A stretch of DNA of 64,000 bases from Parapedobacter soli (lineage in GTDB: Bacteria > Bacteroidota > Bacteroidia > Sphingobacteriales > Sphingobacteriaceae): NCBI RefSeq assembly GCF_025460835.1, contig NZ_JAMXAY010000001.1:62001-126000 (forward strand), in the 5' to 3' direction. Shown here piece after piece: positions 2,317-20,558 of this stretch. Positions within the stretch are counted from its first letter, which is position 1, and every line of letters starts with the position of its first letter. The notes below the pieces were generated by a model that saw only the letters and a program-made list of their open reading frames with translations, ran no database searches and was not told the origin of the DNA. Made by a program: the position numbers and the translations under genes.

Positions 2317-3309
2317 TTACGTAGCCACTTCACTGAGCATAATCGGTACGTTTTGTTCAAACGATCGCTGAGCAGCCACCGCAATCATCGCCGCTTTCAG
2401 CCCATCATCGCCCCTCACCGGTATCTCAAGGTCATCCCGCACGGCTTTGATGAAAGCCTGCATCTCCGTGAGGTATGATGTGGTATAGCGGTCCATAAAA
2501 AAGTGCAGCGGCAGTGATGATTGCGCCCCACCGCTATGGTAATACACATGGTTGTCCGGCTTGTTGTTATCTACCAACGCCATTCCCTCGGAGCCGAAAA
2601 CTTCCAGCCGTTGGTCATACCCATATACCGCTTGCCGACTATTATCGATCACCGCCATGGAACCGTCTTCAAAGGTCAATGTCACTACGGTCGTATCTAT
2701 ATCGCCTGCAGTTGCCACTGCTCCTCCGGTGAGTGTAGCAGCCGCAGCATATACTTGCACTACCTCTTTACCCGTGATATACCGTGCCATGTCGAAATCA
2801 TGGATAGCCATGTCCATAAACAGCCCCCCGGAACTTTGCAGATAGGCCAACGATGGTGGTGCCGGGTCGCGGCTGGTTATTTTTACCATATGTACAGTGC
2901 CAATTTTCCCTTCACAGACCAGCGAGCGCAACTTCATGAAATTCGCATCAAACCGCCGGTTGAAGCCCAGCATCAGTTTGATGCGACTTTGCTTTACGAT
3001 GGTCAGCGTCTGCTCGATGCGCGTGAGCGAAAGGTCAAGTGGCTTTTCGCAGAATACATGCTTGCCCATGCGGGCACACCGCTCTACGTAATCGGCATGG
3101 GTGTCCGTGGGCGAACAGATAACGACTGCATCAACCCTTGGGTCGTCAATGAGTTTATCGGCCTCCGTGTGCCGCACGTGTGTCGGTAATGCATCATGGC
3201 ATACATCAGCGACCATCACCACCTCAGCCTCTGGTATTTGCTGGGTGATATTGTTATAGTGTATTTTACCAATCCGGCCAAGGCCGATAATCCCGATTTT
3301 CAGTTGCAT
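2317..3309 (-). CDS. iolG: myo-inositol 2-dehydrogenase
   Basis: IolG oxidises myo-inositol to 2-keto-myo-inositol (scyllo-inosose) with NAD+, the first step of the pathway; it is cytoplasmic. The protein has 330 residues and the Gfo/Idh/MocA layout: a Rossmann motif GLGRIG at 9-14, catalytic Lys89 in CEKPLD, and Asp166/His170 in MDMAIHDFDMAR, matching the Lys-Asp-His set of Bacillus IolG. The stretch IDNSRQAVYGYDQR is typical of IolG rather than of other family members. It is the last iol gene of the block, 26 bases after iolE. Substrate preference among inositol isomers cannot be read from the sequence. Confidence 0.93.
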   Translation of the reverse strand: MQLKIGIIGLGRIGKIHYNNITQQIPEAEVVMVADVCHDALPTHVRHTEADKLIDDPRVDAVVICSPTDTHADYVERCARMGKHVFCEKPLDLSLTRIEQTLTIVKQSRIKLMLGFNRRFDANFMKLRSLVCEGKIGTVHMVKITSRDPAPPSLAYLQSSGGLFMDMAIHDFDMARYITGKEVVQVYAAAATLTGGAVATAGDIDTTVVTLTFEDGSMAVIDNSRQAVYGYDQRLEVFGSEGMALVDNNKPDNHVYYHSGGAQSSLPLHFFMDRYTTSYLTEMQAFIKAVRDDLEIPVRGDDGLKAAMIAVAAQRSFEQNVPIMLSEVAT

Positions 3310-3335
3310 AAACTGTTTGTTTTAATGGCAATGTA

Positions 3336-4241
3336 TTATAGTCCTAATTGTCTTAAATAAGCTCGATTATTATTGGCACATATTTTTGGTGCCCCCATCC
3401 CTGGCAATACATCCTGCTCCACCACAATCCATCCGTTATAGCCATCGGCACCAAGTGTTGCCAATATGGCACCGAAATCTACCACTCCCTTTCCCAATTC
3501 ACAAAACACGCCCCGCTTCACCGATTCGAAATAATCCCACTCGTTTGCGCCCGATGCCGCACCGACTTGCGCGGCATAATCTTTGAAGTGCACGTGCCAA
3601 ATACGATTTCCGTACTGATTGACCGCAGCCATGGGATTGCCACCGCCAAAGGCGTAATGCCCCGTATCGAAGCAGAGACCAAGCAGTTGCGGATCGGTCA
3701 ATGACATCAGGGTGTCGAGTTCTTGGGGCGTTTCCACATAACCGCCACAATGGTGGTGGAATACTGTGCGCATCCCGTATTCTTCTTTCACCGCCTGTGC
3801 CACTTGCATTGCGCCTTGGGCGAACGTCTCCCATTGGCGCTCATCCAAACCCATTGCCGGGGTTATACGCCCCGCGTAGGCTGTACGTAAAGGAACCGTC
3901 CCATTATCATCGGCAAGCACAATAAAAGCATCCGTATAATCCGCGTCAGCCATCAATCCCGCTACCCGCAGGGCATTCGCCACACCTCTCTGGTGGGCAC
4001 CCTTTTGTACCAACGGCACCGGTACAAATGCACCCACGAGATCCAACTGGAACCGGCTGACGACCTCCTTGAGCGCAGCGGGCTCCGTGGGCATAAATCC
4101 CCAGTCGCCCAATTCGGTTCCCACATAACCGGTTTCCCTGATTTCCCGCAACACCTGCAGATGGTCTGGTGCCTCCGCCTCGAGATCAAATTCCAATGCT
4201 CCCCAAGAACAAGGCGCGTTCGCTACTTTTATTCCTTCCAT
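3336..4241 (-). CDS. iolE: myo-inosose-2 dehydratase
   Basis: IolE dehydrates 2-keto-myo-inositol to 3D-(3,5/4)-trihydroxycyclohexane-1,2-dione, step two of inositol breakdown. The 301-residue protein is a xylose-isomerase-like TIM barrel. The N-terminal NAPCSWGALEFD is a hallmark of IolE, and FHHHCGGYVETPQELD and CFDTGHYAFGG carry the expected metal-site His, Glu and Asp residues. Length is normal. It starts only four bases after the iolA stop, so translation is probably coupled. Assignment is firm by sequence and by its neighbours. Confidence 0.94.
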   Translation of the reverse strand: MEGIKVANAPCSWGALEFDLEAEAPDHLQVLREIRETGYVGTELGDWGFMPTEPAALKEVVSRFQLDLVGAFVPVPLVQKGAHQRGVANALRVAGLMADADYTDAFIVLADDNGTVPLRTAYAGRITPAMGLDERQWETFAQGAMQVAQAVKEEYGMRTVFHHHCGGYVETPQELDTLMSLTDPQLLGLCFDTGHYAFGGGNPMAAVNQYGNRIWHVHFKDYAAQVGAASGANEWDYFESVKRGVFCELGKGVVDFGAILATLGADGYNGWIVVEQDVLPGMGAPKICANNNRAYLRQLGL

Positions 4242-4245
4242 ACCG

Positions 4246-5721
4246 TTAAAATTTTCGTGACCATTCTTTTGGCCACCGCTCGATGACTACCTTGGTCTGT
4301 GTGAAAAATTCGATGGCATGTCTTCCTTGACCATGCAGGTCGCCAAAGAAGCTATCGTTCCAACCACTGAAGGGGAATTGTGCCATCGGCGCAGCCACAC
4401 CGATATTTATGCCGACATTCCCTGCGTTGACCTCGCTACGAAACTTCCGCGCATTGGCACCGCTGCTCGTAAACAAGCACGCCATGTTGCCGTAGTGGTT
4501 ACGATTGATGAACTCCAGTGCAGCATCGACCGTAGGCAAGTTAATGAGGCTCATCACCGGTCCGAATATCTCGGTCTGTATGATTTCTCCACCCAGCGGC
4601 ACATTTTCCAATATAGTGGGCTTAATGAAGTTACCCGTTTCAAAACCTTCGATCGCTGCATTCCGGCCGTCCAGCAGCAAATTCGCGCCTTCGTGCACCC
4701 CTTGTTCGATAAGCTGTTCGATCCGGGCTTTGCTCTCAGTAGAAATCACCGGCCCCATTTCCACGTCATCCAGTAGGCCATACCCTGTCTTCCTGCTTTT
4801 GGCCGCTTCGTACAAGGCGTCCTTCACACGTCCCTGCTCATCGCCTACCACCAAAATATTCGAAGCCGCCAGGCAACGTTGCCCTGCGCACCCGTACACA
4901 CTATCGGTGACGATTCGGGAGGTTGTATCCAAATCCGCATCTGGAAGGACAACCACCGGATTTTTCGCTCCCCCTTGCGCCTGCACGCGCTTGCCATATT
5001 GTGCTCCCTTGGCATAAATATACCGGGCCACACGGGTGGAACCCACAAAACTGATTGCTTTTATCCCCGGATGTTCCAGTATTGCATCTACCGATGCCTT
5101 CCCGCCGTGCACCAAATTGACCACACCCGGGGGCAACCCGATTTGGTCGATTAACTGCATTACCTTCTGCATCGTTAGCGGCACCTTTTCCGACGGCTTA
5201 ATGATAAAGCTGTTGCCGCATGCAATCGCATACGGCAGAAACCAAAAGGCGATCATTCCCGGGAAATTGAACGGTACGATACCCGCACACACACCCACTG
5301 GCTGGCGTATGACAAACTCATCAATGCCCCGCGTTATATTTTCCGAGAATTCACTTTGCAACAGCGTCGGTGCGGCACACGCCGTTTCTACATTTTCTAT
5401 GGCACGCTGCAGTTCGCCAATCGACTCCGCTTTGGTCTTACCGCATTCATTCGTAATGGTCTCTGCCAGTTCGTCCAAATGCTGCTCTAATAATACCTTC
5501 AACCGGTACAAGGGTTGCACCCGCTGCATTACGGGCACAGCTGCCCAATCCGCTTGGGCACGCAATGCCGCTTCCACCGCATCCCCCACATCGGCAGCCG
5601 TATCGTCTCCGTGCGGCACTCGTCCCATTGGTGCCTGGGTAGCCGGATTTATGATATCGATGGCTTGGCGCTCCCGGCTTGCCTGCCAGTGCCCATTGAT
5701 GTAATTCTGTAATATTTCCAT
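4246..5721 (-). CDS. iolA: methylmalonate/malonate-semialdehyde dehydrogenase (CoA-acylating)
   Basis: IolA (MmsA) converts malonate semialdehyde from the aldolase step to acetyl-CoA and CO2 with NAD+ and CoA. The 491-residue protein is an aldehyde dehydrogenase; the catalytic Cys283 lies in AGQRCLAAS. The usual general-base Glu is replaced by Asn in QGGAKNPVV near 253, which is the known signature of CoA-acylating MMSDH enzymes that lack hydrolytic deacylation. N-terminal NYINGHWQAS and VPFNFPGMIAFWF are also typical. It sits between the sodium symporter (14-base gap) and iolE, completing the route to central metabolism. The same enzyme can serve valine breakdown, but context favours inositol. 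Confidence 0.94.
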   Translation of the reverse strand: MEILQNYINGHWQASRERQAIDIINPATQAPMGRVPHGDDTAADVGDAVEAALRAQADWAAVPVMQRVQPLYRLKVLLEQHLDELAETITNECGKTKAESIGELQRAIENVETACAAPTLLQSEFSENITRGIDEFVIRQPVGVCAGIVPFNFPGMIAFWFLPYAIACGNSFIIKPSEKVPLTMQKVMQLIDQIGLPPGVVNLVHGGKASVDAILEHPGIKAISFVGSTRVARYIYAKGAQYGKRVQAQGGAKNPVVVLPDADLDTTSRIVTDSVYGCAGQRCLAASNILVVGDEQGRVKDALYEAAKSRKTGYGLLDDVEMGPVISTESKARIEQLIEQGVHEGANLLLDGRNAAIEGFETGNFIKPTILENVPLGGEIIQTEIFGPVMSLINLPTVDAALEFINRNHYGNMACLFTSSGANARKFRSEVNAGNVGINIGVAAPMAQFPFSGWNDSFFGDLHGQGRHAIEFFTQTKVVIERWPKEWSRKF

Positions 5722-5735
5722 GAACTATTCCTATT

Positions 5736-7337
5736 TTAAACATTTCCCAATAAGATGTAAATCACCAGCGTAATAACTACCAGCGTGATTGCAAAAGGCT
5801 TGGTATACCGCCACGCCTCCATCGGTACAGCTGTGGTATCCAGCGGAGCAACCGCCGTGGTCTGTGCCGGGTAAAGCCGGGATACCCCGAACATGACGCC
5901 CATATTCAGCAAAAACTCGATTCCCCAGATATGTATGAAGTGAATATCCACCTTTAAGATGAATGTGCACAACACGTAAAAAATTAACCCGGTAAACAGG
6001 GCCGCTTTGGCCCCGGCAGCCGAAATACGCTTGAAAAAAAAACCGCCGATCATGATGGACGCGATAGGGATAAAAAAGATACCGTTCAGTTCCTGCAGCA
6101 ATTGGAACAGCCCCTCGGGTGCATTAGCCACAAAAGGTGCCGCCACGATAGAAGTTATGGCGAGTAAGGTCGCCACCATCCGCCCCATAGTCACCAGCTT
6201 CTTTTCCGGTGCCCCTGTTCTGATCATCCGCTTATATACATCGATACTGAAAATGGTCGACGCACTGTTGAGCACCGCATTGAACGTACTGAGTACGGCA
6301 CCCATGATTACCGCAGCAAAAAGCCCCAAGAGCGGCATCGGCAGGATTCTTTTGACCAACTCGGGGTATACCATGTCTTGATTGTCATAAAAGGCATCGC
6401 TGAAATAATAATAACCGATTACACCGGGCAAGACAATAATGAAAGGAACGAGGATCTTCAGCAGGCCGGTATATAATAGCCCTTTTTGCGCTTCCTTAAG
6501 ATTTTTCGCACCCAGCACCCGCTGAACAATCGTTTGATTCATGCACCAGAAGTATAGCTGGTTAATCACTAGTCCGGTGAAAAGCGTACTGAATGGCATC
6601 ACCGAATCTTCTGTGCCGATAACGTTGAATTTTTCTGGACTGTGTTCGAAAACGCGGGCCAAACCGTTCAGTGGATTCCCATCACCGATATAGATGAGTG
6701 CCAAAACAGGTATCAGCAAGCCACCGAAAAGCAATCCATAACCGTAAATAACGTCCGAAACAGAAACTGCTTTCAGGCCGCCAATGATGGCATAGGCAGC
6801 ACCGATACATCCCACCACCACCACCGTAATCCAAAGGCCGGTCTCTCGGCTCACACCCAATACTTCCGAAATATTGAAAATACTTTCCAGGTTGATGGCC
6901 CCCGTGTATAAAACAATCGGCAATAGGGTCACGGCAAAAGAAACCAATAAAAACAGTGCAATCAACGAACGAGTGCCCTTGTCGAATCGCCTTTCCAAGT
7001 ATTCCGGTATGGTGGTAAGCCCCATCCGCAAGTACTTAGGCACAAAATACACCGCCGCTGCGATAAGCGCCAAGGCGGAGGTCACCTCCCAAGCGATGAT
7101 GATAAATCCGTTTTTATAGGCCGAACCGTTCATACCGACCAGGTGTTCAGTCGAGATGTTCGTCATAATCATGGAGGCGGCGATTACCGGCCCCGTCAGG
7201 CTCCGACCCCCAAGGAAATAGCCATCTTGCGTACTCAGGTTGTCCTTACGCATGCGGAGCCAAGCATAGATACCCACAAATAGGGTAAACCCTACGAAAC
7301 TAATAATGGCAATTAGGGACGATGAAGATTCAAACAT
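5736..7337 (-). CDS. SSS-family Na+/solute symporter, probable inositol transporter
   Basis: An inner-membrane sodium:solute symporter of 533 residues with some 13-14 hydrophobic helices. Family features include the N-terminal DGYFLGGRSLTGPVIAASM segment and NISTEHLVGMNGSAYKNG near 60-80. The SSS family includes the animal SMIT inositol carriers, and its place between iolD (31-base gap) and iolA makes inositol the likely cargo; that substrate is inference from context. The ATG at 7337 was chosen over an upstream TTG at 7343. It would take up inositol released in the periplasm by the phosphatases encoded upstream in the block. Confidence 0.88.
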   Translation of the reverse strand: MFESSSSLIAIISFVGFTLFVGIYAWLRMRKDNLSTQDGYFLGGRSLTGPVIAASMIMTNISTEHLVGMNGSAYKNGFIIIAWEVTSALALIAAAVYFVPKYLRMGLTTIPEYLERRFDKGTRSLIALFLLVSFAVTLLPIVLYTGAINLESIFNISEVLGVSRETGLWITVVVVGCIGAAYAIIGGLKAVSVSDVIYGYGLLFGGLLIPVLALIYIGDGNPLNGLARVFEHSPEKFNVIGTEDSVMPFSTLFTGLVINQLYFWCMNQTIVQRVLGAKNLKEAQKGLLYTGLLKILVPFIIVLPGVIGYYYFSDAFYDNQDMVYPELVKRILPMPLLGLFAAVIMGAVLSTFNAVLNSASTIFSIDVYKRMIRTGAPEKKLVTMGRMVATLLAITSIVAAPFVANAPEGLFQLLQELNGIFFIPIASIMIGGFFFKRISAAGAKAALFTGLIFYVLCTFILKVDIHFIHIWGIEFLLNMGVMFGVSRLYPAQTTAVAPLDTTAVPMEAWRYTKPFAITLVVITLVIYILLGNV

Positions 7338-7368
7338 AAGCAACGGTTATGGCTAGTGTACACACATT

Positions 7369-9225
7369 TTATAAATGACGGCGTTGTTTTTCCTTTTGGC
7401 TCACGGACTGCTCGTAGGCTTGCTGTACGCCGGCAGTCCCGGATACCGCAGCGAGCGGTACTTCCCACCATGCGTGGCCATAACCAGCCATCTTCCGCTC
7501 GGGTCCGGTTTCTACATAGACCACGGTGGTCGTTCCGTTAGCCTTAGCCTGTTCCAGCGCCTTGCCAAAGGAAGCCGCGTCAGATGCACGGATGACCGTA
7601 GCACCCAGACTTTCTGCATTCTTGGCAAGGTCTACCGGCAGCAGCTGGCCATCCAACTGCCCCGACCCTTCGTCTCGTGCCCTATATTGGGTGCCGAAAC
7701 CTTCGGTACCCAGCGATCTGGACAAGCCACCGATGCTCGCGAATCCGTGGTTATTGATTAGGATGATGGTGAGCTTGTAGTCTTCCTGTATGGAGGTCAC
7801 GATTTCCGACGACATCATCAGGTAGCTTCCATCGCCTACCATCACATACACCTCGCGCCCACGATCGGCCATCTTGACCCCTAGTCCACCGGCAATTTCA
7901 TATCCCATACACGAGTACCCGTATTCGAGATGGAAGCCCTTGGGGTCGCGTGTGCGCCAAAGCTTATGCAAATCGCCGGGCAGGCTGCCGGCAGCACATA
8001 CCACCACATCTTTGGGTGCCGCAAAATCATTGACCAAGCCGATAACCTCCGCTTGCGAGAGTCGTTGGTCGCTTTCCGGCTCATAAGCCAATGCTACTTT
8101 TTCATCCCAGCTGTGATTATAGGCCGCTACCCGGTCTCGGTAGGCCGTGTCCACGCTGTAGTCGGCCAAGCGGTCTGTTAATGCCTCCAGCGTGGCACGC
8201 GCATCGCCGGTGAGGGCCAAGCCCGCTTGTTTGTGGGCGTCAAACTCTGCAACATTGATATTGATAAAGCACACATCTGAGCTTTGAAAGGCCGTTTTGG
8301 ACGCGGTGGTAAAATCACTGTACCGCGTACCGATACCAATCACCAAATCCGCCTCTCCGCTAACCGCATTCGCCCCTTCCGTGCCCGTTGCCCCCATGGC
8401 GCCTAACTGATGGGGGTCATTATAAGGCAGGGACCCTTTGCCGGCAAAAGTCTCTGCAACGGGAATACCAGTGGCGTGTACGAACGCACGGAGCGCATCG
8501 GTGGCTTCTCCATAGATTACCCCGCCACCGGCCACGATCATTGGCCTCTTGGCCGCACGGATCCGTGCAACAGCTCGTTGTATCAATTCTGCGTCAGGTA
8601 AGGGTCGTGGGATATACCACACCCTTCTTTCGAACAATTCGTTGGGAAAATCATAGGCCTCTGCCTGCACGTCTTGCGGTAAACAAAGAGTCACTGCACC
8701 TGTCTCCGCTGGTGACACCAATACCCGCATTGCCTGCATCAACGAAGCGATTAGCTGCTCGGGCCGGTTAATGCGGTCCCAAAACCGGGATACGGGCCGG
8801 AAACAATCGTTGACCGAGACATCTGCCGATGCCGTAAATTCGAGTTGCTGCAACACAGGGTCCACATGCCGGCTAGCAAAAATATCGCCCGGAAGCAATA
8901 ATACCGGAAGCCGGTTGATGGTGGCCGCTGCAGCAGCCGTCAGCATATTGGTCGCCCCCGGACCAATGGACGAGGTGCAAGCAAATGTAGACAGGCGGTT
9001 TCTCATACGGCTATAGGCCGCGGCGGTATGGACCATGGCCTGCTCATTGCGTGATTGGTAATAGGTGAATGCAGGGTAGTCAAATAGCGCTTGGCCTATT
9101 CCACCCACGTTGCCATGTCCGAATATACCGAAACAACCGGCAAAGAATTTATGTTGCACACCATCCCGTTCCACGTATTGCTGGTCGAGAAATCGGATAA
9201 GTGCTTGGGAAGTAGTCAACCTCAT
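7369..9225 (-). CDS. iolD: 3D-(3,5/4)-trihydroxycyclohexane-1,2-dione acylhydrolase
   Basis: IolD opens the inositol ring, hydrolysing the cyclic diketone to 5-deoxy-glucuronate; it is a thiamine-diphosphate enzyme of the acetolactate-synthase type. The 618-residue form starting MRLTTSQALIRFLDQQYVE has the family's standard N-terminus. Further signs are GIFGHGNVGGIGQAL near 35 and the ThDP motif starting GDGSYLMMSSEI with INNHGF. A longer frame runs back to 9402 inside iolC, but ATG 9225 is preceded by GGAGG eight bases upstream, one base after the iolC stop, which settles the start. Coupled translation with iolC is expected. Confidence 0.95.
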   Translation of the reverse strand: MRLTTSQALIRFLDQQYVERDGVQHKFFAGCFGIFGHGNVGGIGQALFDYPAFTYYQSRNEQAMVHTAAAYSRMRNRLSTFACTSSIGPGATNMLTAAAAATINRLPVLLLPGDIFASRHVDPVLQQLEFTASADVSVNDCFRPVSRFWDRINRPEQLIASLMQAMRVLVSPAETGAVTLCLPQDVQAEAYDFPNELFERRVWYIPRPLPDAELIQRAVARIRAAKRPMIVAGGGVIYGEATDALRAFVHATGIPVAETFAGKGSLPYNDPHQLGAMGATGTEGANAVSGEADLVIGIGTRYSDFTTASKTAFQSSDVCFININVAEFDAHKQAGLALTGDARATLEALTDRLADYSVDTAYRDRVAAYNHSWDEKVALAYEPESDQRLSQAEVIGLVNDFAAPKDVVVCAAGSLPGDLHKLWRTRDPKGFHLEYGYSCMGYEIAGGLGVKMADRGREVYVMVGDGSYLMMSSEIVTSIQEDYKLTIILINNHGFASIGGLSRSLGTEGFGTQYRARDEGSGQLDGQLLPVDLAKNAESLGATVIRASDAASFGKALEQAKANGTTTVVYVETGPERKMAGYGHAWWEVPLAAVSGTAGVQQAYEQSVSQKEKQRRHL

Positions 9226-9226
9226 G

Positions 9227-10246
9227 TTAAAATCCTCCATGTTTTTCGATGAATACCATTGACTCGTCCAGTGTAGGCATGAAATTGGCGCAACCAGGTT
9301 GCAGTACCACCTGTGCTCCACTCGCGTTACCCATGCGGCACGACTTGTACAGGTCCCACCCGTTAAGGTAGCCGTAAATAAACCCGGAAGCAAACGCATC
9401 ACCTGCTCCTAAGATGTTTAGCGGCACCACCGGAAATCCGGGTACATCTATCTTATTCCCTTTGTTATCATATACGGTTGCACCTGTTGCACCTCGTTTC
9501 ACCACTAATACTTCCACACCCAACGCCAAAACCCCCTCAATCGCTTTATCGATATCGCCTTTGACGGTAGGAGCAGAAATCTGCTGGTGTTCAATCGTCA
9601 CCTGCGAGGCATCCTCCAACATCGCTGCCAAGAGCTCTTCCTCGGTACCGATTGCCACCTGGATATTGGGGAGCAACGCCCGTACCATTACGCCAAACGA
9701 TCGGATGTCTGCCCATTGGTCTGCCCGGAAATCAATGTCGAGCAGGGTGGTCACGCCGTGTGCTTTAGCACGTTCAGCCGCATGGAAGACTGCGCTGCGG
9801 CTCGGCTCGATATTCAATGCCGTGCCTGACAGTTCAATCAGCCGCACACTCGCCATGTCTATAGCATTCACATGATCGATGGTAATCTGCGAATCTGCCG
9901 CATTGTTGCGGTAAAATACAAGTGGAAAGGTATCTGGCGGCTGTATGCCCAGCAACACGGCACTGCTCCGCGCGCCGGCTATGCGGGGAATAAAGGCCGT
10001 TTCCACCTTTTCCTTTTCCAGAAAATTTAAAATGAAGTCGCCTACTTTGTCGTCGCCCACACCCGTAAGGAGTGCCGCTCGGAGTCCCAACCGGCTGCAA
10101 CCGGTGGCAATATTCAACGGAGATCCCCCAACGAAGGCATCAAACCCTTTAATGGCTATAAACTCAGCCCCGATGTTCTGCGAATAGAGGTCTATTGATG
10201 AACGCCCCACCGTGAGCACGTCATATGCTTTTAATTTGCCATCCAT
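9227..10246 (-). CDS. iolC: 5-dehydro-2-deoxygluconokinase
   Basis: IolC phosphorylates 5-dehydro-2-deoxygluconate with ATP, giving the substrate of the IolJ aldolase. It is a PfkB/ribokinase-family kinase of 339 residues. The N-terminal YDVLTVGRSSIDLYSQNIG is typical of IolC, GGSPLNIATGCSRLG at 40-54 is the first PfkB signature, and PLNILGAGDAFASGF carries the catalytic Asp283. Its ATG shares one base with the iolB stop (TAATG) and it ends one base before iolD, so the three genes are tightly coupled. Confidence 0.94.
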   Translation of the reverse strand: MDGKLKAYDVLTVGRSSIDLYSQNIGAEFIAIKGFDAFVGGSPLNIATGCSRLGLRAALLTGVGDDKVGDFILNFLEKEKVETAFIPRIAGARSSAVLLGIQPPDTFPLVFYRNNAADSQITIDHVNAIDMASVRLIELSGTALNIEPSRSAVFHAAERAKAHGVTTLLDIDFRADQWADIRSFGVMVRALLPNIQVAIGTEEELLAAMLEDASQVTIEHQQISAPTVKGDIDKAIEGVLALGVEVLVVKRGATGATVYDNKGNKIDVPGFPVVPLNILGAGDAFASGFIYGYLNGWDLYKSCRMGNASGAQVVLQPGCANFMPTLDESMVFIEKHGGF

Positions 10247-11124
10247 TATCCATTCATTTTTGCGGTTACCATTGGAATCCGCTCATCCCTACCCTTCCAC
10301 GTACCGAATATCCACTCATGGTCCGGATCGGGTGTGTTGGCCAGCGATTGATCCGAGCCCGCTAGGAAGTTGAGGTAATATACATCATAGCCATGGCCGG
10401 CTACCACTGGATGGTAACCTTTAGGTACCAGCACTACGTCGTTATGCCGGGCTAAGGCGATTTCATTTAGGCTGCCATCGCCGGTGTATATCTGCTGGAT
10501 GGCATACCCCTGGGGTTTACTGATTTTATAGAAATACGTCTCTTCCAACCGAGCCTCCACTAACTGTCCATTTTCATCAACAATACGCTCATCGTGCTTA
10601 TGGGCTGGGTATGAGCTCCAGTTGCCCGATGGGGTGTAGACCTCAACAGCGACTAATCGGTGGCAGGGAAATCCTGGCCCCAGCAAATCGTTGATTTGTC
10701 GGGTGGCGTTATCACCACCGCGTATTTCTATCTGTACGTCTTGGGGCTGCTTTAATACTGGCGAAAAATCACGGTCTGTCTCGCACCACCCATAGGCGAT
10801 GTCCAACACATCACTTTCGGCAACGAATTCGAAGGACGTATGGCGCGGCAGGTAAAGCGAATGGGCCATGCCCGAAAAAACATCCTTCCTTCCGTTAAGG
10901 GTCTGCCAGCTTCCTTTATCCGTATTCACTCGATAATTACCCCCTAACAAGATGATGGCATACTCGTTGTCTCCGGTATCATCCTGCCACACCTCACCCC
11001 GCTGCATCGTCCTTGCAGCAAAATTGAGGTATTGCCACCCAGCGTCTTCCCGGCTGATGTGTTGGTAAACCGAGGTGGCATCATCCGGTTTGGCCAAAAG
11101 CCCGCATTGTTGATCCTGTTTCAT
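10246..11124 (-). CDS. iolB: 5-deoxy-glucuronate isomerase
   Basis: IolB isomerises 5-deoxy-glucuronate to 5-dehydro-2-deoxy-gluconate. The 292-residue protein has a bicupin fold. Metal-binding cupin motifs are visible in WSSYPAHKHDE near 170 and in the segment YHPVVAGHGYDVYYLNFLAG near 245. The C-terminal DPDHEWIFGTWK is characteristic. It lies between the aldolase gene (38-base gap) and iolC (one-base overlap). Length and neighbours leave little doubt. Confidence 0.94.
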   Translation of the reverse strand: MKQDQQCGLLAKPDDATSVYQHISREDAGWQYLNFAARTMQRGEVWQDDTGDNEYAIILLGGNYRVNTDKGSWQTLNGRKDVFSGMAHSLYLPRHTSFEFVAESDVLDIAYGWCETDRDFSPVLKQPQDVQIEIRGGDNATRQINDLLGPGFPCHRLVAVEVYTPSGNWSSYPAHKHDERIVDENGQLVEARLEETYFYKISKPQGYAIQQIYTGDGSLNEIALARHNDVVLVPKGYHPVVAGHGYDVYYLNFLAGSDQSLANTPDPDHEWIFGTWKGRDERIPMVTAKMNG

Positions 11125-11162
11125 TTCAATGAATTCTTTTATTAAGTCAGTAACGGCCGCGC

Positions 11163-12103: not shown

Positions 12104-12166
12104 CTAGCTTCAGACCGTTGGTTCTACAATACAACGACAATTTAGATGGACAGTCAAGATGAAAAG

Positions 12167-12182
12167 ACGCAAAGGTTTGCGT
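12167..12182. promoter_or_regulatory. LacI-type operator upstream of the iol genes
   Basis: The 16-mer ACGCAAAGGTTTGCGT is an inverted repeat (CGCAAA, two bases, TTTGCG) 64 bases before the iolJ ATG, in the gap between the metallophosphoesterase gene and iolJ. An identical 16-mer lies upstream of susC at 20543-20558. A perfect 16-base repeat in two regulatory gaps of one locus strongly suggests shared control, most simply by the LacI regulator at 20647. No clear -7 element was found close by. Confidence 0.75.
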
Positions 12183-12199
12183 TACATCTTCACTGGTTG

Positions 12200-13666
12200 T
12201 TAGGGCACAAATAATATGCTATCCGGCAAAACACGTTCGGAAATTAATCGGCTTGCATATCCCACTTCAAGCACTTCACCCATATAATCCTCAAAATACG
12301 CCAGTTCAAAATCGTGATACCCTGCTTCGAGTGCTACCTTACCATCCTTTCGCCGGGCGTTATGCGAGCCATCATTATCAACAACCAGATGCCCGCCAAT
12401 CGAGAGTTGAGAACCGTCGTCAGAATACGTGTAAAACCGATAGACTCCTCGACTTGGAATTTTAATCAATCCCTTAAACACAATAGCAAAGGAGTCCCTA
12501 GCGGTAGCAACGTCAAGCGAAAGATGTTCTGTAGTACCGACGTGGACCAGTTTGGCGTTTCGTGAGGTATCAGCCAATTGCTTCAGTCGCCCACCTTCGT
12601 AATATCGGTAACGGAGCCCTTGGCTTGGATTGTTGACGGGCTTAGGGAGGAGGTAATTCATCGCGTCTTCTTCATCGGCCGAAAGGCCCGATGGATAATA
12701 ATAAACAAGTTCCTTCACGCTTGGTGTACGAACCCAAGTATCAAAGCGGCGCTCCCCTTCGTACAATTTAATGATTCGGCCACCGCGCTGCAAATCGCCA
12801 TATGCGTCGATGCCCGTTGTCCGCCCAAAGGCCAACGCAATGTCATAACGCATGCCGATATAATCATTATTGTGATCGTGCCCCACAAACGCTCCCATGA
12901 CGTCCTGCATCTCGAGAAAAGAGGCGAATAACCCAGAATTGATATCCGACGAGGCAACGCCTTCATTGGCCGTACCAAACGTGTTTTCTTTCTGATGAAT
13001 TTCCTCGAATTCTTTAATCGGTATATGAAAAAAAGCCAAGGCCGGCAAAGGGCCATTCCTATTTTCCGCTGTATATCGGTTGCTTTGCTCGCGATACCAA
13101 GCCAACTGGTCGAAATGCACCCAATCATAATGGCCATATTTGTGGGCCGACGGCCGATTATGCGTATCCAAACAATAAAGCAGCGCCCTCACTTCGTCGG
13201 CCCCACTCGCAAATATGGGAAGCACATAATTTCCACTACCACTGATGGTCGGACCCGCCTCACCGACGAAGTAAGCGGCACCACTCAACGCCTCGAAGAC
13301 CTCCGACCGGGTCATTCCTGCCTCGTCATCGTGGTTGCCCAAGGTCAATGCCCAAGGCATTTTTGCCTCTTCAAAAATCTTCGCTATAGACTCCCATCCT
13401 TCCGCGGCTGGAGGGGCGGTTACCACATCTCCGGTAACAATAGCCAAATCCGGCTGCTCTGCCGCTAGTATATGTAAGATCACTTCCTTTGTACGGGCAC
13501 TATTCGGCGAAGCGTCTTCCCAGTGCAAATCTGTGAACTGCGCAATTTTGAAATGGCCATCGCTGTTAAATCGAAGCTTGATAGCTCCACTATTTCCGTT
13601 ATCACCCTGTTTGCAGCCGAAAGCAAGCAAAACGAGTAAGATTGCAGCTGAAAATATACTCTTCAT
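12200..13666 (-). CDS. lipoprotein metallophosphoesterase with C-terminal PA14-like domain
   Basis: A calcineurin-like phosphoesterase of 488 residues, probably releasing phosphate from organic phosphates outside the inner membrane. MKSIFSAAILLVLLAFGC is a lipoprotein signal. Dimetal motifs occur in order: FTDLHW, VTGDVV, TLGNHDDE, HIP and VGHDHNND. Roughly the last 120 residues (from AKLVHVG onward, with GVYRFYTYSDDGSQLSIGG) look like a PA14 domain, a beta-rich module often binding glycans. It starts 12 bases after the GDPD-phosphatase gene and precedes the iol genes, so inositol phosphates are likely substrates; that is inference. The in-frame TTG 12 bases upstream was not chosen because the ATG gives a normal signal peptide. 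Confidence 0.85.
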   Translation of the reverse strand: MKSIFSAAILLVLLAFGCKQGDNGNSGAIKLRFNSDGHFKIAQFTDLHWEDASPNSARTKEVILHILAAEQPDLAIVTGDVVTAPPAAEGWESIAKIFEEAKMPWALTLGNHDDEAGMTRSEVFEALSGAAYFVGEAGPTISGSGNYVLPIFASGADEVRALLYCLDTHNRPSAHKYGHYDWVHFDQLAWYREQSNRYTAENRNGPLPALAFFHIPIKEFEEIHQKENTFGTANEGVASSDINSGLFASFLEMQDVMGAFVGHDHNNDYIGMRYDIALAFGRTTGIDAYGDLQRGGRIIKLYEGERRFDTWVRTPSVKELVYYYPSGLSADEEDAMNYLLPKPVNNPSQGLRYRYYEGGRLKQLADTSRNAKLVHVGTTEHLSLDVATARDSFAIVFKGLIKIPSRGVYRFYTYSDDGSQLSIGGHLVVDNDGSHNARRKDGKVALEAGYHDFELAYFEDYMGEVLEVGYASRLISERVLPDSILFVP

Positions 13667-13678
13667 AATGGTATACAA

Positions 13679-15613
13679 TTAAAGTGCTAAAGCCTGCTTG
13701 ATTTTATGAAAGATCGCCGTATTTGGATAAACACCCTTGAAATCGTCTGACCCCGGCCCATAGGCGAAAACCGGCAGCATCAACGGCGTATGATCATCCG
13801 TCATGTATAAGGCCGTGATTTCGCCCTCCGCCCAATTTCCGTCAATCAATGTCAATCCACCCGTTTCGTGGTCACCAGTCACAATCACCAATGTCTGGCC
13901 GTCTTCATCAGCAAATTTCAATGCCTCGGCAACAGCCAGATCGAAACTCAACGTTTCCATAATGGATCCAGGTAACGAATTGGCATGGCCAGCGTAGTCA
14001 ATCTTTGCCGCTTCCACCATCAGGAAGAAACCCTTTTCACTCGTCCCATCCAAGCGAAGAATGGCCGATTGTGTTGCCTCAGCCAAAAGCCTGATGTTTT
14101 TTTCTGACACAGCTTTCCCAAATCGGTCATCGATGCAAATGGTTTTTTCGGCGTAGTTAGGCAACTCCCCTAAATCGGTCACGAGCTGATATTGTGCATT
14201 TAACTCATTCCAAAGATCCCTGCCATCATTACGGTGGCTGAACACACGCCTACCGCTCCCAATAAGCAGATCCAATTTTCCGTCCATCAGGTACGCGGTC
14301 AAGGCATCGCTATCGTCCCGCTCAGCCGCGTGTCCGTAAAAGGCGGCAGGTGTCGCATCAGCCACATTACCTGCGGTGACCACACCGCAAACCATTCCAG
14401 CGTCATTCGCATAGTCCGTAATTGATGGGTTAATCTGGCCCACGGAATCTACACTGATGTGGCGATTTTTCGTTTTTTTACCGGTAGCCAATGCACTACC
14501 TCCCGCGGCTGAATCAGTGGTGTATGCATCCAAGGCGCTGGTTTCCTGCAGGCCAATGGTGGGGATGAGCAGTGTACTCAACGTCCTATTAAATGCATAG
14601 GCTGCCTGCAATTGCGCCAACCCCATGCCGTCGCCAATCAATAAAATAACGTTTCTGATACGTTCATTACTTCCGTCTACTGCACCAAGGGGTATATATA
14701 CGGGAATAGCGGCCGACAACGTCATTTCCTTCCCGTCAAATCCTCTGAAACCACGTGTTGTGACATCCAATCTTTCTGCGCGCGTGATTTCACCGCCCTG
14801 TAAAGGCCGTTGCTGGCTGAATGTTTTCCTGTCAAAATTGGAAAAGAACGCAGCACAACGCTCAATCTCATCCGTATTGATGATATCCACACCCATTTTG
14901 TATAACGTATTCCAAGCAGTTATACCATCAGGTGTGCCCCAAAACCGGATTTTCTTGCCAAGTCCATGGGCCTGGTCAATCGCTTTAGCGACCTGTTTGC
15001 CCTCCTTGTCTGTCAATGCTCCTTTCCCGTTCCACTTCGCATAACTGGAAAACGGCGCGCTAATGAACGCCACACGTTCCAACTGGCTCTCGGTATAGTG
15101 AACGTTAAGCCGCCCGTCAAACCAGATGTAGCGCGGGAAATCAGCAAACGCTAAGGGATCCGGCATAGCACCGGAAATCACTACAGTGACCGCATAGGGG
15201 TTTACGGTCTCATCAAACACGTCCGGATATTTTGCGAGGAGATCGACCACTGGCTGTAAGGTTTCCGTAGCAGGCGTTTTCAGATCGATTAGGAGGACGC
15301 ACCTATCCGATGACGCAGCCCATGCCCGCCCTCCATTTGAGGTGAACACGTCTACAATGGGTTTGATGTACAATGCCTCCAAAGTCCGATGAGGTTGTAA
15401 CTCCCCACGGTCATGGCCGACCAATACCGCTCCATCCACTGCAAATACGTCGGCTTCGATGGTATAGACCTGTTGCGAGTATGCCTGATAAAACGGCACT
15501 CGCTGGTGATAGTCATTGTGTGCATGGATCAAAACGCGATCCTGCTGGGCAGCTACTTGGAGTATTGCCCAGCAGGATACGAATATCCATGCTAATAAGC
15601 ATCTCATAGACAT
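13679..15613 (-). CDS. secreted GDPD/PI-PLC-like and alkaline phosphatase fusion
   Basis: A two-domain enzyme of 644 residues with a signal peptide (cut after about QVAA). Residues 26-265 resemble the glycerophosphodiester-phosphodiesterase/PI-PLC-like barrel of the AIM6 type: HAHNDY with His30 and His32, TIEADVF with Glu53 and Asp55, VGHDRGEL with His67, and the last-strand motif INTDEIE. Residues 318-644 are an alkaline phosphatase: LLIGDGMG, nucleophile motif TTDSAAGG (Ser368), GDHETGG and DDHTP. One polypeptide could therefore cleave a phosphodiester and then remove the phosphate. Its ATG overlaps the susD stop (TGATG). With inositol genes downstream, glycerophosphoinositol or a phosphoinositide head group is the likely substrate, by inference. 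Confidence 0.87.
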   Translation of the reverse strand: MSMRCLLAWIFVSCWAILQVAAQQDRVLIHAHNDYHQRVPFYQAYSQQVYTIEADVFAVDGAVLVGHDRGELQPHRTLEALYIKPIVDVFTSNGGRAWAASSDRCVLLIDLKTPATETLQPVVDLLAKYPDVFDETVNPYAVTVVISGAMPDPLAFADFPRYIWFDGRLNVHYTESQLERVAFISAPFSSYAKWNGKGALTDKEGKQVAKAIDQAHGLGKKIRFWGTPDGITAWNTLYKMGVDIINTDEIERCAAFFSNFDRKTFSQQRPLQGGEITRAERLDVTTRGFRGFDGKEMTLSAAIPVYIPLGAVDGSNERIRNVILLIGDGMGLAQLQAAYAFNRTLSTLLIPTIGLQETSALDAYTTDSAAGGSALATGKKTKNRHISVDSVGQINPSITDYANDAGMVCGVVTAGNVADATPAAFYGHAAERDDSDALTAYLMDGKLDLLIGSGRRVFSHRNDGRDLWNELNAQYQLVTDLGELPNYAEKTICIDDRFGKAVSEKNIRLLAEATQSAILRLDGTSEKGFFLMVEAAKIDYAGHANSLPGSIMETLSFDLAVAEALKFADEDGQTLVIVTGDHETGGLTLIDGNWAEGEITALYMTDDHTPLMLPVFAYGPGSDDFKGVYPNTAIFHKIKQALAL

Positions 15614-17190
15614 CAATATCCGTTATTTTGCTTCAGGTTCTCACTCGTAGCAATTTCCCTTACCGGGATCGGAAATACATGGTGTATTGACGGATTGAAC
15701 CGCCTTGCTGGCCATACTTCTACCTCTTCCAACGACGCAATTGTGCCGTTTGCCAAATTCACTTTGAAACCATGCAACGGCTGCGCATAGGTTGTCTGCG
15801 CATCTCCCCAACGAACAAGGTCAAGGTGGCGCCATACCCCCCATTCAAAAGCAAACTCTACGCGTCGTTCATTCTTTAGCTGTGCTTTGGTTGCCTGGCT
15901 ATTACGTCCCAAACCTGCCCGCTCACGGATATCGTCTATCAATTCTTTAGCTACGGGATCGCCTTCCCCATTTTTCCAGATGAGTGCTTCTGCCTTGATC
16001 AGCAAGATTTCGGCGTACCGCATTAACGATATGTTGAGATCGGTGGTCATGTTGTTACCATCAGGGTTAACTGTTTTTCCGATAGCATCAGCGTCACGGA
16101 ATGGCGCGAGGTATTTACGCAGCGTCATCCCCGTTGGGCTCGACGTGGACGCAGGATTGACCTGCCAAATGATATCGTTGCCGATAAACGACACGTGATC
16201 GCCAGGAGCCACAATCGTTGCTGCTCTCCGCTCATCACCTTCCTCAAACGCATTATAAAGCTCAAGTGTAGGCTGGAAATACCCCCATGTGTTATAATAG
16301 CCAAACCCTCCGTTCTGGAAGGATATGCCCGGCCATTTCGAGCCATCGATTTCATTGCTCGTCACACTGTATATGTATTCTGTACTCCAATTGTTTTCGA
16401 TTTCAAACACATCTGCATAGCTGTCCAGCAACCGGTGCTTCTGCGAGTTGATTACCTTGTCGGCGTACGAAATCGCCACATCGTAAAATGAGGCATCAAA
16501 TTGGGCGGCATACAGCGCTGCCCTAGCTGCAAAGCCCCACGCTGCGGTTTTATGCACCAATCCCCAATCGCTTGTAGGGATGTCATCGAAATAAGGCAGG
16601 TATTCCGAGGCGCGCTCCATATCGTTGATGACCATCCGGTAATTTTCAAGCACAGAGGCTGGCCGTGGCACATCGATTTCTTCGGTTGGGGTATCCTCTG
16701 TCACGATGGGTATTCCCCCATTGGGACCATCATCCCCATACCAGGGAGCAAGCCACAGGTAAGCAAACGCACGCCAAAAAAAGGCATTACCTAGGACGAT
16801 ATTTTTTGTAGCATCAGAAATACTTGTAGCATTAGGTATTTCTGCAATAATCCGATTCGCGTAGTTAATGGTTTGGTACATACGGGGCCAATTGTCCCGC
16901 ACATCTCTTGACATCGAACCATTATCTATAAAATTCTTGATATTGGCCGCTTCGGCCTGCGTGCGACCTGTCACCATATCGTCGCTGGCATTTTCATACC
17001 AAAAGAAACCACGGCCCATTGTTCCCTCACGGTACTGCCATTCGTAAAGAGCGTAGACCGTTTGCATGGCCTGCTCATCGGATACGCTACCCAAGTCCGA
17101 AGGTTGTCCATAAGGTTCGAATTCCAAAAAGTCATTGCAAGACGTAAACACCAATACGAGGGCAAACGTCATTATTAAAATCTTCTTCAT
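15613..17190 (-). CDS. SusD/RagB-family surface lipoprotein
   Basis: A SusD-like lipoprotein of 525 residues: the outer-membrane lid that captures ligand for the SusC channel encoded directly upstream (22-base gap). The signal ends in VFTSC with lipid-anchored Cys18. The N-terminal NDFLEFEP and GNAFFWRAFAYLWLAPWYGDGP-like TPR region, and the C-terminal RRVEFAFEWGVWRHLDLVRW, are standard for the family. Its stop overlaps the start of the GDPD-phosphatase gene, tying uptake to phosphodiester cleavage. The ligand cannot be read from the sequence; context suggests an inositol-containing phosphate ester rather than a plain glycan. Confidence 0.93.
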   Translation of the reverse strand: MKKILIMTFALVLVFTSCNDFLEFEPYGQPSDLGSVSDEQAMQTVYALYEWQYREGTMGRGFFWYENASDDMVTGRTQAEAANIKNFIDNGSMSRDVRDNWPRMYQTINYANRIIAEIPNATSISDATKNIVLGNAFFWRAFAYLWLAPWYGDDGPNGGIPIVTEDTPTEEIDVPRPASVLENYRMVINDMERASEYLPYFDDIPTSDWGLVHKTAAWGFAARAALYAAQFDASFYDVAISYADKVINSQKHRLLDSYADVFEIENNWSTEYIYSVTSNEIDGSKWPGISFQNGGFGYYNTWGYFQPTLELYNAFEEGDERRAATIVAPGDHVSFIGNDIIWQVNPASTSSPTGMTLRKYLAPFRDADAIGKTVNPDGNNMTTDLNISLMRYAEILLIKAEALIWKNGEGDPVAKELIDDIRERAGLGRNSQATKAQLKNERRVEFAFEWGVWRHLDLVRWGDAQTTYAQPLHGFKVNLANGTIASLEEVEVWPARRFNPSIHHVFPIPVREIATSENLKQNNGY

Positions 17191-17212
17191 CTTTAAAACA
17201 GCTAATTGCTTC

Positions 17213-20200
17213 TTAAAACGAAACGTTGATACCTAAACTGAACATGCGCGATACGGGAAACCTACCCCCATCGATTCCGAGGTTACCTACCTCGGGGTCA
17301 AACGCCGAATAATCCGTGAGCGTTAACACGTTTTCAGCATTGGCATACACCCGTATGCTGGTTTGCCCTGTCCCACCAATCCGGCCCACCAAGCTGCTTG
17401 GCAGTGTATAAGCGAGGTTTACATTCTTCAACCTCAGGTAATCCGCCTTTTCCAAGAAGTACGACGACACCTTCGAATAGTTGCCGTTCGGGTCATCGAT
17501 GAACGACAATCTAGGGATACCGGAATTCGGATTATATTCGAAGGATTGCAGGATATCCGTGGTCATGTTCCAACCCTTCAACCCCGACGAAGACATTGCT
17601 CTCACACCGTTGAACACATTGACGCCAGAAACACCTTGCCAAAACATACTCAGGCTGAACCCTTTCCAAGTGGTACCAAGGGTAAAACCATAGGAGAAAT
17701 CCGGGTAATCATAAGCGCCCATATATTGCCGGTCGCCATCGTTGATAATCCCATCATTATTGTGATCCACGAACCGGATATCCCCCGGTTTTGCTGACGG
17801 TTGAATCAGCGAAGTCTCGCCGGTTTCTGGATTCATCCACGTATAATTGTTGATCTCTTCTTGGGTCTGGAAAATCCCATTGGCCTCAATCAGGTAATAC
17901 GAGTACCAGGGCTGCCCCACGGTTGATTGCAGTGGTTGCATGGAATTCACGCCTTCACTATGGGCAATCAGCGTACGTTTGCCGATATTCAGCACCTTAT
18001 TTTTCACGGTTCCTAAATTACCGCGTACATCCACATGCCAATCGCCGAACTGTTGTTTATAAGCCAATGAAAATTCAAACCCTGTATTCTCAACCTGCCC
18101 GATATTCGTCTCCGGAGGTGAAGCTACACCCGCTACGGACGGTACTGGCAAGCTTTCAATCAGGTCCTTCGTCTTCTTGCTGAAATAATCCGCTGTCAGA
18201 TTCAGTTTGTTATTGAAGAATCCCAAGTCCACACCTAAGTTGGCCTGTTCGGTGCGCTCCCACTTCAGGTTGGGGTTGGGAATGGTGCCTTGATACAAGC
18301 CAAACATCCACCTGTTCGTATTTTCACCCAAGAATACCCCTACGTCACCCAACGAATATGGCGGTGCGTAGATAAATCGGCGAACCGAACGAACATTGCC
18401 CACTTGCCCCCAACTAGCGCGGACTTTGAGGAAGCTCACCGCATCGCTCTGCGGCATGAACGGTTCTGAGGTCACCTTCCAGGCCACAGAAGCCGCTGGA
18501 AAGACATCGGCGTTGTCACTGGGGTTCAGCTTAGACGATGCATCCCTTCGGATACTTCCCGTGAGGAAGTAACGGTCGTCGTAAGAATACGAGACGCGGG
18601 CAAGCTGAGACATGATAGATTCTTCCCATATCAGTTCCTCCGGCCTATCCGAACTCCAATCCGCAGCGTTTTCAAATACGACGTAATGCGGATATTCGAA
18701 CTGGTAGCCGCGCGTATATACTTTATGGCTTCGCTCAGTCGAGTAATTCATGGTAAATGCACCAAGGGCAGACAGGTAGTGTTTCCCGTTGAATGTTTTC
18801 GAATAAGAGAGGATATTCTCCCAGTTCCAGTTTTTATCGAACAACGACCTTATGCTACGGAAGTTCTCGTCGATTGTCCTTCCTGGTGCTGTAAATCGAC
18901 CCGTAAAGCTTTCACCACGGAAATTTGAGGTATTGTAGGAAAAGTCAGACTTGAATTCCAATCCATTGATTGGCTTTATAATCAGCGAGGAAAGTGAAAA
19001 CACACGATTTGTTGGATTATGTTGCCGGGTATTCAACAATTGGCTCACGGGGTTTAACAAATCCGCTTCTACGCTGAAACCTTCAGCCAGCGCCCAACGC
19101 GGAACGGTCCCACTCGGCAGTTGGTTTCCCAAATCATCGTATTCGTACATTTCATTGAAACGTGGGTAAGCCATAGCGGAGAATACCGCACCTGTATGAC
19201 CCGAGCCGATCTCACTTTGTCCATTGCTGTATCCGTAAAGCAAACTTTGGTTCAGGCTTACCCAGTTATTGAATTTAAAACCTAAGTTCAACCGGGCTGT
19301 AAGGTTCTTATTCCACGTATTCAATAGGGTGCCATCTACGTCATCGTAAGCCAATGATGCCAGCGCATTCAACGATTCACTACCCCCGCTGATGGTAACG
19401 TCATAATGCTGCATCCTACCCGACCGGAAAATCTCATCCACCCAATCCGTCCGGGTTACATTTCCATATGGAAACTGATCCGGGTCATAGGTCGCTGGGA
19501 CACTACGGCCAGCCGCAGCAGAGGCATCCTTCCACACCCGATTGAAATCTTCCGCTGTTAGCACCTCGGGTGTCCGCCACGCTTGCTGCACACCGTTCCA
19601 AGCGTTTGCATCCACACGTAGCGTTCCCGCCCTAGCCTTCTTCGTCGTGATCACGATTACCCCACCGGAACCGGCATATGCTCCGTATATTGCAGATGAG
19701 GCGGCATCTTTCAGCACCGTCACTGTTTCAATGTCTGCCGGGTTAAATGGTGCATTGGGAACACCGTCTACGACATACAGTACGCCATCGCCCGCCCGGT
19801 TTCCACGGCCGCGGATACTGATGTTATCCGTAGCCCGAGGATCACCGCTTTGTTGCACGCGCACACCCGGCATTTCGCCCTGAATGATGTTGCCCAATGA
19901 TGCTGGCCGACCTTTGAACCGATCATCCACGCTGACAGACGATACGGCCACCGAAAGGTCCTGCTTACGATTTGAACCGTAACCAATAGCCACGACCTCA
20001 TCCAGCATATTAGCATCTCCTCCCAATTGGATGTTAATGGTCAACCGTCCATCCACATGCTCCTCCAATGAGGGGAACCCCACATAGGAGAAAACCAATA
20101 TCGCATTGGCTCCCACATCAATGGAATACTCCCCCTCTTCATCCGTTACTGTCGACCTGTTCGAATGTTTTTCGGCAACGGTTACACCCGCCAGCGGCTC

Positions 20201-20314
20201 ACCTGAGTTCTGTTCGGTGACTTTGCCGACTATCTTCTCTTGGGCATACGCCCTACCGCCCAAAGCGACGAGAACAACCAGCAAACAAAAGTTAAGATAA
20301 TAGATTTTTCTCAT
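17213..20314 (-). CDS. SusC/RagA-family TonB-linked outer-membrane receptor
   Basis: A TonB-dependent transporter of 1033 residues. It has a signal peptide (to about Ala24), a carboxypeptidase-regulatory-like domain (EKIVGKVTEQNSGEPLAGVTV and following), the SusC signature LDEVVAIGYGSNRKQDLS, a plug domain (SIRGRGN, YVVDGVPNAPFN, VLKDAASSAIYG) and a long barrel ending in a terminal Phe. It pairs with the SusD protein downstream and heads the whole minus-strand block. It imports ligands across the outer membrane using TonB energy. A LacI-type operator lies 229 bases upstream. Confidence 0.95.
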   Translation of the reverse strand: MRKIYYLNFCLLVVLVALGGRAYAQEKIVGKVTEQNSGEPLAGVTVAEKHSNRSTVTDEEGEYSIDVGANAILVFSYVGFPSLEEHVDGRLTINIQLGGDANMLDEVVAIGYGSNRKQDLSVAVSSVSVDDRFKGRPASLGNIIQGEMPGVRVQQSGDPRATDNISIRGRGNRAGDGVLYVVDGVPNAPFNPADIETVTVLKDAASSAIYGAYAGSGGVIVITTKKARAGTLRVDANAWNGVQQAWRTPEVLTAEDFNRVWKDASAAAGRSVPATYDPDQFPYGNVTRTDWVDEIFRSGRMQHYDVTISGGSESLNALASLAYDDVDGTLLNTWNKNLTARLNLGFKFNNWVSLNQSLLYGYSNGQSEIGSGHTGAVFSAMAYPRFNEMYEYDDLGNQLPSGTVPRWALAEGFSVEADLLNPVSQLLNTRQHNPTNRVFSLSSLIIKPINGLEFKSDFSYNTSNFRGESFTGRFTAPGRTIDENFRSIRSLFDKNWNWENILSYSKTFNGKHYLSALGAFTMNYSTERSHKVYTRGYQFEYPHYVVFENAADWSSDRPEELIWEESIMSQLARVSYSYDDRYFLTGSIRRDASSKLNPSDNADVFPAASVAWKVTSEPFMPQSDAVSFLKVRASWGQVGNVRSVRRFIYAPPYSLGDVGVFLGENTNRWMFGLYQGTIPNPNLKWERTEQANLGVDLGFFNNKLNLTADYFSKKTKDLIESLPVPSVAGVASPPETNIGQVENTGFEFSLAYKQQFGDWHVDVRGNLGTVKNKVLNIGKRTLIAHSEGVNSMQPLQSTVGQPWYSYYLIEANGIFQTQEEINNYTWMNPETGETSLIQPSAKPGDIRFVDHNNDGIINDGDRQYMGAYDYPDFSYGFTLGTTWKGFSLSMFWQGVSGVNVFNGVRAMSSSGLKGWNMTTDILQSFEYNPNSGIPRLSFIDDPNGNYSKVSSYFLEKADYLRLKNVNLAYTLPSSLVGRIGGTGQTSIRVYANAENVLTLTDYSAFDPEVGNLGIDGGRFPVSRMFSLGINVSF

Positions 20315-20542: not shown

Positions 20543-20558
20543 ACGCAAAGGTTTGCGT
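20543..20558. promoter_or_regulatory. LacI-type operator in the susC/lacI divergent gap
   Basis: This is ACGCAAAGGTTTGCGT, identical over 16 bases to the site at 12167-12182. It lies in the 332-base gap between susC (start 20314, minus) and a LacI-family gene (start 20647, plus), so it could control both and provide autoregulation. The rest of the gap is AT-rich and shows no gene. I found only one-mismatch versions of the TAnnTTTG element, for example near 20492-20499 on the minus strand. Confidence 0.75.

Follow-up and report, generated by a model that had tools for sequence, protein, structure and literature searches.

What does a SusC-SusD pair import when it stands at the head of an operon for inositol catabolism? 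SusCD systems have nearly always been read as importers of glycans; a few have, since 2020, been interpreted as scavenging phosphate. The question is raised by a 64,000-nucleotide stretch of the genome of Parapedobacter soli (Sphingobacteriaceae; genome size 5.17 Mb), hereafter the window, whose minus strand carries, from 20314 to 2317, SusC, SusD, a GDPD_2/PLC-like phosphodiesterase fused to an alkaline phosphatase (AP), a metallophosphoesterase-PA14 lipoprotein (MPP), iolJ-B-C-D, a sodium:solute symporter of the SSF family, and iolA-E-G. On the comparisons below, it is probable that a cassette of the type known as PUS II, a phosphate utilisation system, was recruited into an inositol regulon, where it would import and hydrolyze an inositol phosphodiester and so feed inositol catabolism. 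What is new is the cassette's apparent wiring to the same operator as the iol genes.

17213–20314, minus: SusC-like TonB-dependent transporter, PUS II-type (Pfam Plug, TonB_dep_Rec, CarbopepD_reg_2)
15613–17190, minus: SusD-like outer-membrane lipoprotein (Pfam SusD_RagB)
13679–15616, minus: exported fusion of GDPD_2/PLC-like phosphodiesterase and alkaline phosphatase (Pfam PF13653, PF00245)
12200–13678, minus: calcineurin-like metallophosphoesterase with PA14, lipoprotein (Pfam PF00149, PF07691; LAFGC lipobox in the translation)
~11163–12103, minus: iolJ (F_bP_aldolase, Pfam family match), frame interrupted
10246–11124, minus: iolB, 5-deoxy-glucuronate isomerase (TIGR04378, 332 bits, cut-off 205)
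9227–10246, minus: iolC, 5-dehydro-2-deoxygluconokinase (TIGR04382, above cut-off)
~7369–9222, minus: iolD, THcHDO hydrolase (TIGR04377, 920 bits, above cut-off)
5736–7343, minus: Na+:solute symporter (SSF), presumed inositol importer (NF007790, PF00474)
4246–5721, minus: iolA/methylmalonate-semialdehyde dehydrogenase (TIGR01722, above cut-off)
3336–4241, minus: iolE, inosose dehydratase (TIGR04379, 197 bits, below the curated cut-off of 290)
2317–3309, minus: iolG, inositol 2-dehydrogenase (TIGR04380, 428 bits, cut-off 355)
20647–21738, plus: LacI1, LacI-family regulator divergent from susC, candidate inositol regulator (Pfam LacI)
21680–22726, minus: LacI2, second LacI-family gene, flank, also kept in iol-less species (Pfam LacI)
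20543–20558, minus: operator-like palindrome ACGCAAACCTTTGCGT upstream of susC
12167–12182, minus: operator-like palindrome ACGCAAACCTTTGCGT upstream of iolJ

A preliminary description of this DNA had listed the genes from susC to iolG, and every one was found on the minus strand between 2317 and 20314; the list had omitted both LacI genes. Its report of tight spacing and overlaps also held, as the SusC and SusD genes are 22 bp apart, the SusD and fusion genes overlap by 4 bp, the fusion gene abuts the metallophosphoesterase gene, and iolB and iolC overlap; a 96-bp gap precedes iolJ. The NCBIfam equivalog cut-offs are passed by IolG, IolD, IolC, and IolB, and IolA passes at the subfamily level; for IolE, TIGR04379 is the best-matching model, yet the score lies under its cut-off. 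With these reservations for iolE and for the interrupted iolJ, the genes iolA, B, C, D, E, G, and J lie all together in the window. The preliminary description was right that iolJ is present but overlooked that it is split by a frameshift into two overlapping frames (11693–12103 and 11163–11723), with the break at a run of seven A near 11715–11730. The frame is intact in three Parapedobacter relatives, and the break may be either genuine or an artefact of assembly.

The operator-like palindrome and LacI1

The 16-bp palindrome ACGCAAACCTTTGCGT, of LacI type, occurs in the LacI1-susC intergenic region and again between the metallophosphoesterase gene and iolJ. Its 12-base core, GCAAACCTTTGC, was searched in ten genomes. 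The window's own genome holds two copies, before susC and before iolJ, both in the locus, and four Parapedobacter genomes without iol hold none. In the other iol-bearing Parapedobacter (G045, G068, G087, and G093) copies of the core lie upstream of iolJ as well as of the GDPD or SusC1 unit and the SusC2 or SusC unit; in G219, presumed to be a Sphingobacterium, it precedes the iolJ of an iol operon that has LacI1 and no SusCD. Across 15 sites the core is invariant, with A/G-C/T as its left flank and G/A-T/C as its right. Two further occurrences (G068:C1:240559 and G219:C1:578996) lie inside unrelated open reading frames without the flanking YGC...GCR bases and were taken as chance.

A LacI1 orthologue is present at all six iol loci of the family, that of G219 included, and is the sole regulator seen at all six, which makes it the natural candidate for binding the operator. 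Both this binding and its direction of action are presumptive.

A related palindrome, GTGCAAACGTTTACGT, was noted at 2278–2293 of the window, upstream of a GH88 gene, and may be bound by a different LacI-type protein.

Ancestry of the SusC-SusD-fusion cassette

The fusion or a close relative was found in 166 of 301 Sphingobacteriaceae genomes (E <= 1e-40), with SusC-SusD upstream in a dozen of the fusion loci read. The SusCs of these cassettes are 34–40% identical to the window SusC, as against 26–31% for other SusCs, and their SusDs are 41–45% identical to the window SusD, which lies directly, with its SusC, before a PF13653+PF00245 fusion. In a SusD tree with cassette SusDs from Sphingobacteriaceae and Lunatibacter, the F. 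johnsoniae proteins not being included, the window SusD falls within the clade of other cassette SusDs: it and that of G093 cluster with 12 of them at a support of 98/100. As a unit the trio is already known: it is common among Sphingobacteriaceae, and its architecture is that of PUS II.

The PUS II of Flavobacterium johnsoniae comprises Fjoh_3252 (FecR), Fjoh_3251 (PusC2), Fjoh_3250 (PusD2), and Fjoh_3249 (PhoA1, with pf00245 and pf13653); it is strongly induced by phosphate depletion, its SusCD is the proposed importer of organic phosphorus, and its phosphoesterase is periplasmic (PMC8115612). PhoA1 and PhoA2 of this species are active phosphomonoesterases, neither of which is essential for phosphomonoester scavenging (PMC8812569), which leaves room for a role on diesters. 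Table 1 of the latter paper gives pf13653 to PhoA2 and not to PhoA1, which contradicts the 2020 paper (PMC8115612). The window resembles PUS II in that the gene after SusC-SusD encodes an alkaline phosphatase with pf13653. It differs in having an additional metallophosphoesterase and, downstream, a carbon pathway for the freed alcohol, and in its regulation: whereas PUS II has a FecR-like regulator and responds to phosphate starvation, no FecR or ECF-sigma gene lies upstream of the window SusC, where LacI1 and the operator common with iol are found instead. FecR and ECF-sigma genes do stand upstream in two Pfam-checked cassettes (L050 and L064). The window SusC also lacks about 100 N-terminal residues that 10 of 12 cassette SusCs outside Parapedobacter possess; this short N terminus fits a loss of FecR/ECF signalling, and the extension is likewise missing from the two remaining cassette SusCs.

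These comparisons bear on the strongest alternative, in which SusCD, the fusion, and the metallophosphoesterase form an ordinary PUS II scavenger of mixed phosphodiesters, with iol merely adjoining and inositol incidental. The same trio is indeed widespread without iol, and phosphate depletion induces PUS II in F. johnsoniae (PMC8115612). However, the window cassette lacks the ECF-sigma and FecR genes seen upstream of cassettes elsewhere, it has in common with iolJ an operator that occurs nowhere else in the genome, and neighbouring species hold GDPDs and SusCDs under that operator. We therefore consider a simple scavenger unlikely.

The preliminary description had suggested that the utilization locus would be of a new kind, which is too strong, since SusCD-phosphoesterase loci are already known as PUS (PMC8115612). 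It had also proposed to give up its reading if the fusion and SusCD lay mostly apart from iol genes in relatives, and mostly apart they are: iolD is present in just 6 of the 301 genomes. Such separation across the family points to a secondary recruitment in Parapedobacter.

Phosphoesterases at the iol loci

The six genomes with iolD are five Parapedobacter and G219 (by inference of the Sphingobacterium group); a class-wide sample of 394 other genomes yielded iolD in 3. The iol operon with LacI1 recurs in five of nine Parapedobacter genomes, so the clustering of these genes is no accident. The loci L002 and L004 (P. pyrenivorans and P. defluvii) are the same as those of G068 and G045. Beside LacI1 and the operator, the Parapedobacter loci carry:

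Window: SusC1-SusD1-GDPD::AP-MPP
G093: SusC1-SusD1-GDPD::GDPD, then SusC2-SusD2-EEP-SusC3-SusD3
G045 and G068: a lone GDPD-like protein and the block SusC2-SusD2-EEP-SusC3-SusD3
G087: a classical GDPD, an Oar-like protein, SusC-SusD, U595

GDPD-type enzymes are thus found at all five loci, fused to AP in the window, to a second GDPD in G093, and to nothing in G045 and G068: the GDPD-superfamily enzyme is the constant component and the phosphatase partner the variable one. Each of the five genomes has 5–7 PF03009 genes, from which chance alone would put a GDPD beside iol in only a few per cent of stretches of 20 kb, a figure not to be multiplied five times, as four of the five loci are of common ancestry.

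In the window fusion, residues ~26–260 form the phosphodiesterase domain and residues ~320–645 the alkaline phosphatase domain. His31, Glu54, Asp56, His68, and Asp111 of the former are invariant in an alignment of 25 homologues and follow the pattern of metal-dependent GDPD-type enzymes, and we take them to be catalytic. The motifs GDGMG, TDSAAGG, EAAKIDYAGH, GDHETGG, and DDHT of the latter are all found between positions 328 and 607. Both active sites, as judged from these residues, appear intact. In the predicted structure (mean pLDDT 79), the fold of the phosphatase half matches that of the TAB5 alkaline phosphatase (TM 0.86 by target length); the matches listed for the fusion were all alkaline phosphatases, with nothing on the phosphodiesterase half.

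Two loci of a second family have related arrangements:

G608: iolB-D-A-E-G-SusC-SusD-U595-metallophosphatase-AP-GH88
G786: iol-SusC-SusD, then SusC2-SusD2-EEP

The SusC2, SusD2, and EEP of G786 are 65, 63, and 65% identical to those of the Parapedobacter block. A phosphoesterase is present at seven of seven iol loci with an adjacent SusCD pair (G669, with SusCD on the opposite strand of a broken contig, was left out of the counts), and none was seen among the neighbours examined, not all of them Pfam-scanned, of the SusCD-less loci of G219, G616, G779, and G794; those of G616 include a sulfatase-family protein.

Inositol phosphates, either phytate or lower forms, are abundant in soil, and they could be the target, with AP and the metallophosphatase as key enzymes. 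This soil abundance, the presence of both enzymes in the window and in G608, and the relatives' EEP phosphatase, which is related to a mannosyl-6-phosphatase, are in its favor. Yet no phytase family was detected among the locus proteins scanned, and the component common to the five Parapedobacter loci, the GDPD, has no expected role on inositol phosphate monoesters, which makes such a target improbable.

Two other proteins recur near iol genes. A GH88 unsaturated glucuronyl hydrolase (963–2222 of the window, a relative of 3WIW) separates iolG from the ribosomal protein operon; it was rejected as part of the system in Parapedobacter, the rplC-GH88 pair being kept in the iol-less G003 and G078. 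U595, a protein of 595–645 residues, occurs in two iol loci of different families (L044 11206–12993 and L070 4036–5973) and belongs to no Pfam family and lacks a significant relative in the PDB; its structure model (L044:11206-12993) has a mean pLDDT of 48.5 and was not used for fold search. A glycosylated inositol phosphate ligand, for instance the head groups of plant glycosyl inositol phosphorylceramide, would agree with the enzymes acting on uronates in the wider loci (GH88 adjoins iolG in all five iol-bearing Parapedobacter and recurs in G608) and with U595 being common to G087 and G608, but is the least probable of the alternatives, as GH88 stays beside rplC in iol-less Parapedobacter and is hence flank there, the U595 fold is of low confidence, and the window operon has no glycosidase.

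Two side observations concern Parapedobacter. The iol-less species carry an 84% identical SSF symporter beside LacI2, at the same chromosomal place (L075 14065–16676; L076 1772–4407); they may have lost iol, or the substrate of their symporter may be a different one. Another SusCD locus in G068 (L078 4770–17000) has two GDPD and two carbohydrate-kinase-like genes, its SusC and SusD being 36 and 38% identical to SusC2 and SusD2, and from its gene content looks like a glycerophosphodiester utilization locus.

A route from phosphodiester to inositol catabolism

In the recruited-cassette reading that we favor, an inositol-containing phosphodiester would cross the outer membrane via SusCD and be split by the exported GDPD_2/PLC-like domain; the phosphate would be removed by the fused alkaline phosphatase with the aid of the metallophosphoesterase; free myo-inositol would be taken in by the SSF symporter and degraded by IolG/E/D/B/C/J/A, the susC and iol units both being under LacI1 control via one shared operator. 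We infer the substrate, the order of reactions, and the cell location. With a GDPD-type enzyme as the constant component and inositol catabolism as the path that the product takes, the most likely ligand is glycerophosphoinositol or a related head group from an inositol lipid. The earlier tie of phosphoesterases and SusCD to inositol catabolism is strengthened by the shared locus-specific operator and the recurrent GDPDs, although the substrate is still conjecture.

Several observations weigh against this reading. Across the family the cassette mostly occurs without iol genes, the present assembly has a broken iolJ frame, and none of the four other iol loci in Parapedobacter has the AP domain. 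The metallophosphoesterase has a 67% identical paralogue elsewhere in the genome (C134; L087 11630–13105), close to another SusCD pair and away from any iol genes. Members of the phosphodiesterase superfamily cut differing diesters, and specificity cannot be read from sequence; the link between LacI1 and the operator is one of position and co-occurrence.

As in polysaccharide utilization loci, the window combines a SusCD pair, degradative enzymes, and a regulator; unlike in such loci, where carbohydrate-active enzymes belong to the operon, phosphoesterases take their place, and Pfam detected no carbohydrate-active enzyme between 2317 and 20314. An iol cluster was described in Parapedobacter indicus RK1 in 2020 (PMC7500135), and a 2022 survey places iol clusters in ~3% of Bacteroidetes species, only in Flavobacteriaceae, Weeksellaceae, and Spirosomaceae (PMC9430895). 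The window shares with the clusters the full iolA-B-C-D-E-G-J set and a sodium symporter; SusCD and phosphoesterases, both present in the window, are not mentioned at the locus in the passages retrieved from the two papers. No description of SusCD and iol as an inositol-phosphate system was found in the literature searched, subscription journals being mostly outside the search.

There is perhaps an even chance that phospho-inositol utilization loci form a recurrent class in Bacteroidota, in which SusCD and exchangeable phosphoesterases (GDPD, AP, metallophosphatase, or EEP) are placed with iol in one inositol-responsive regulon and inositol phosphodiesters serve as combined carbon and phosphorus sources; such loci would have arisen more than once, with parts spreading between families, as the 63–65% identity of SusC2-SusD2-EEP between Parapedobacter and G786 suggests. 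The SusCD hardware here appears wired to a carbon pathway, so that the phosphodiester would be food and not just a source of phosphorus. For the SusC-SusD-GDPD::AP cassettes, which abound in Sphingobacteriaceae and for which no ligand is known, the locus offers a testable substrate class, and its operator sequence could be used for finding more inositol regulons in Bacteroidota.

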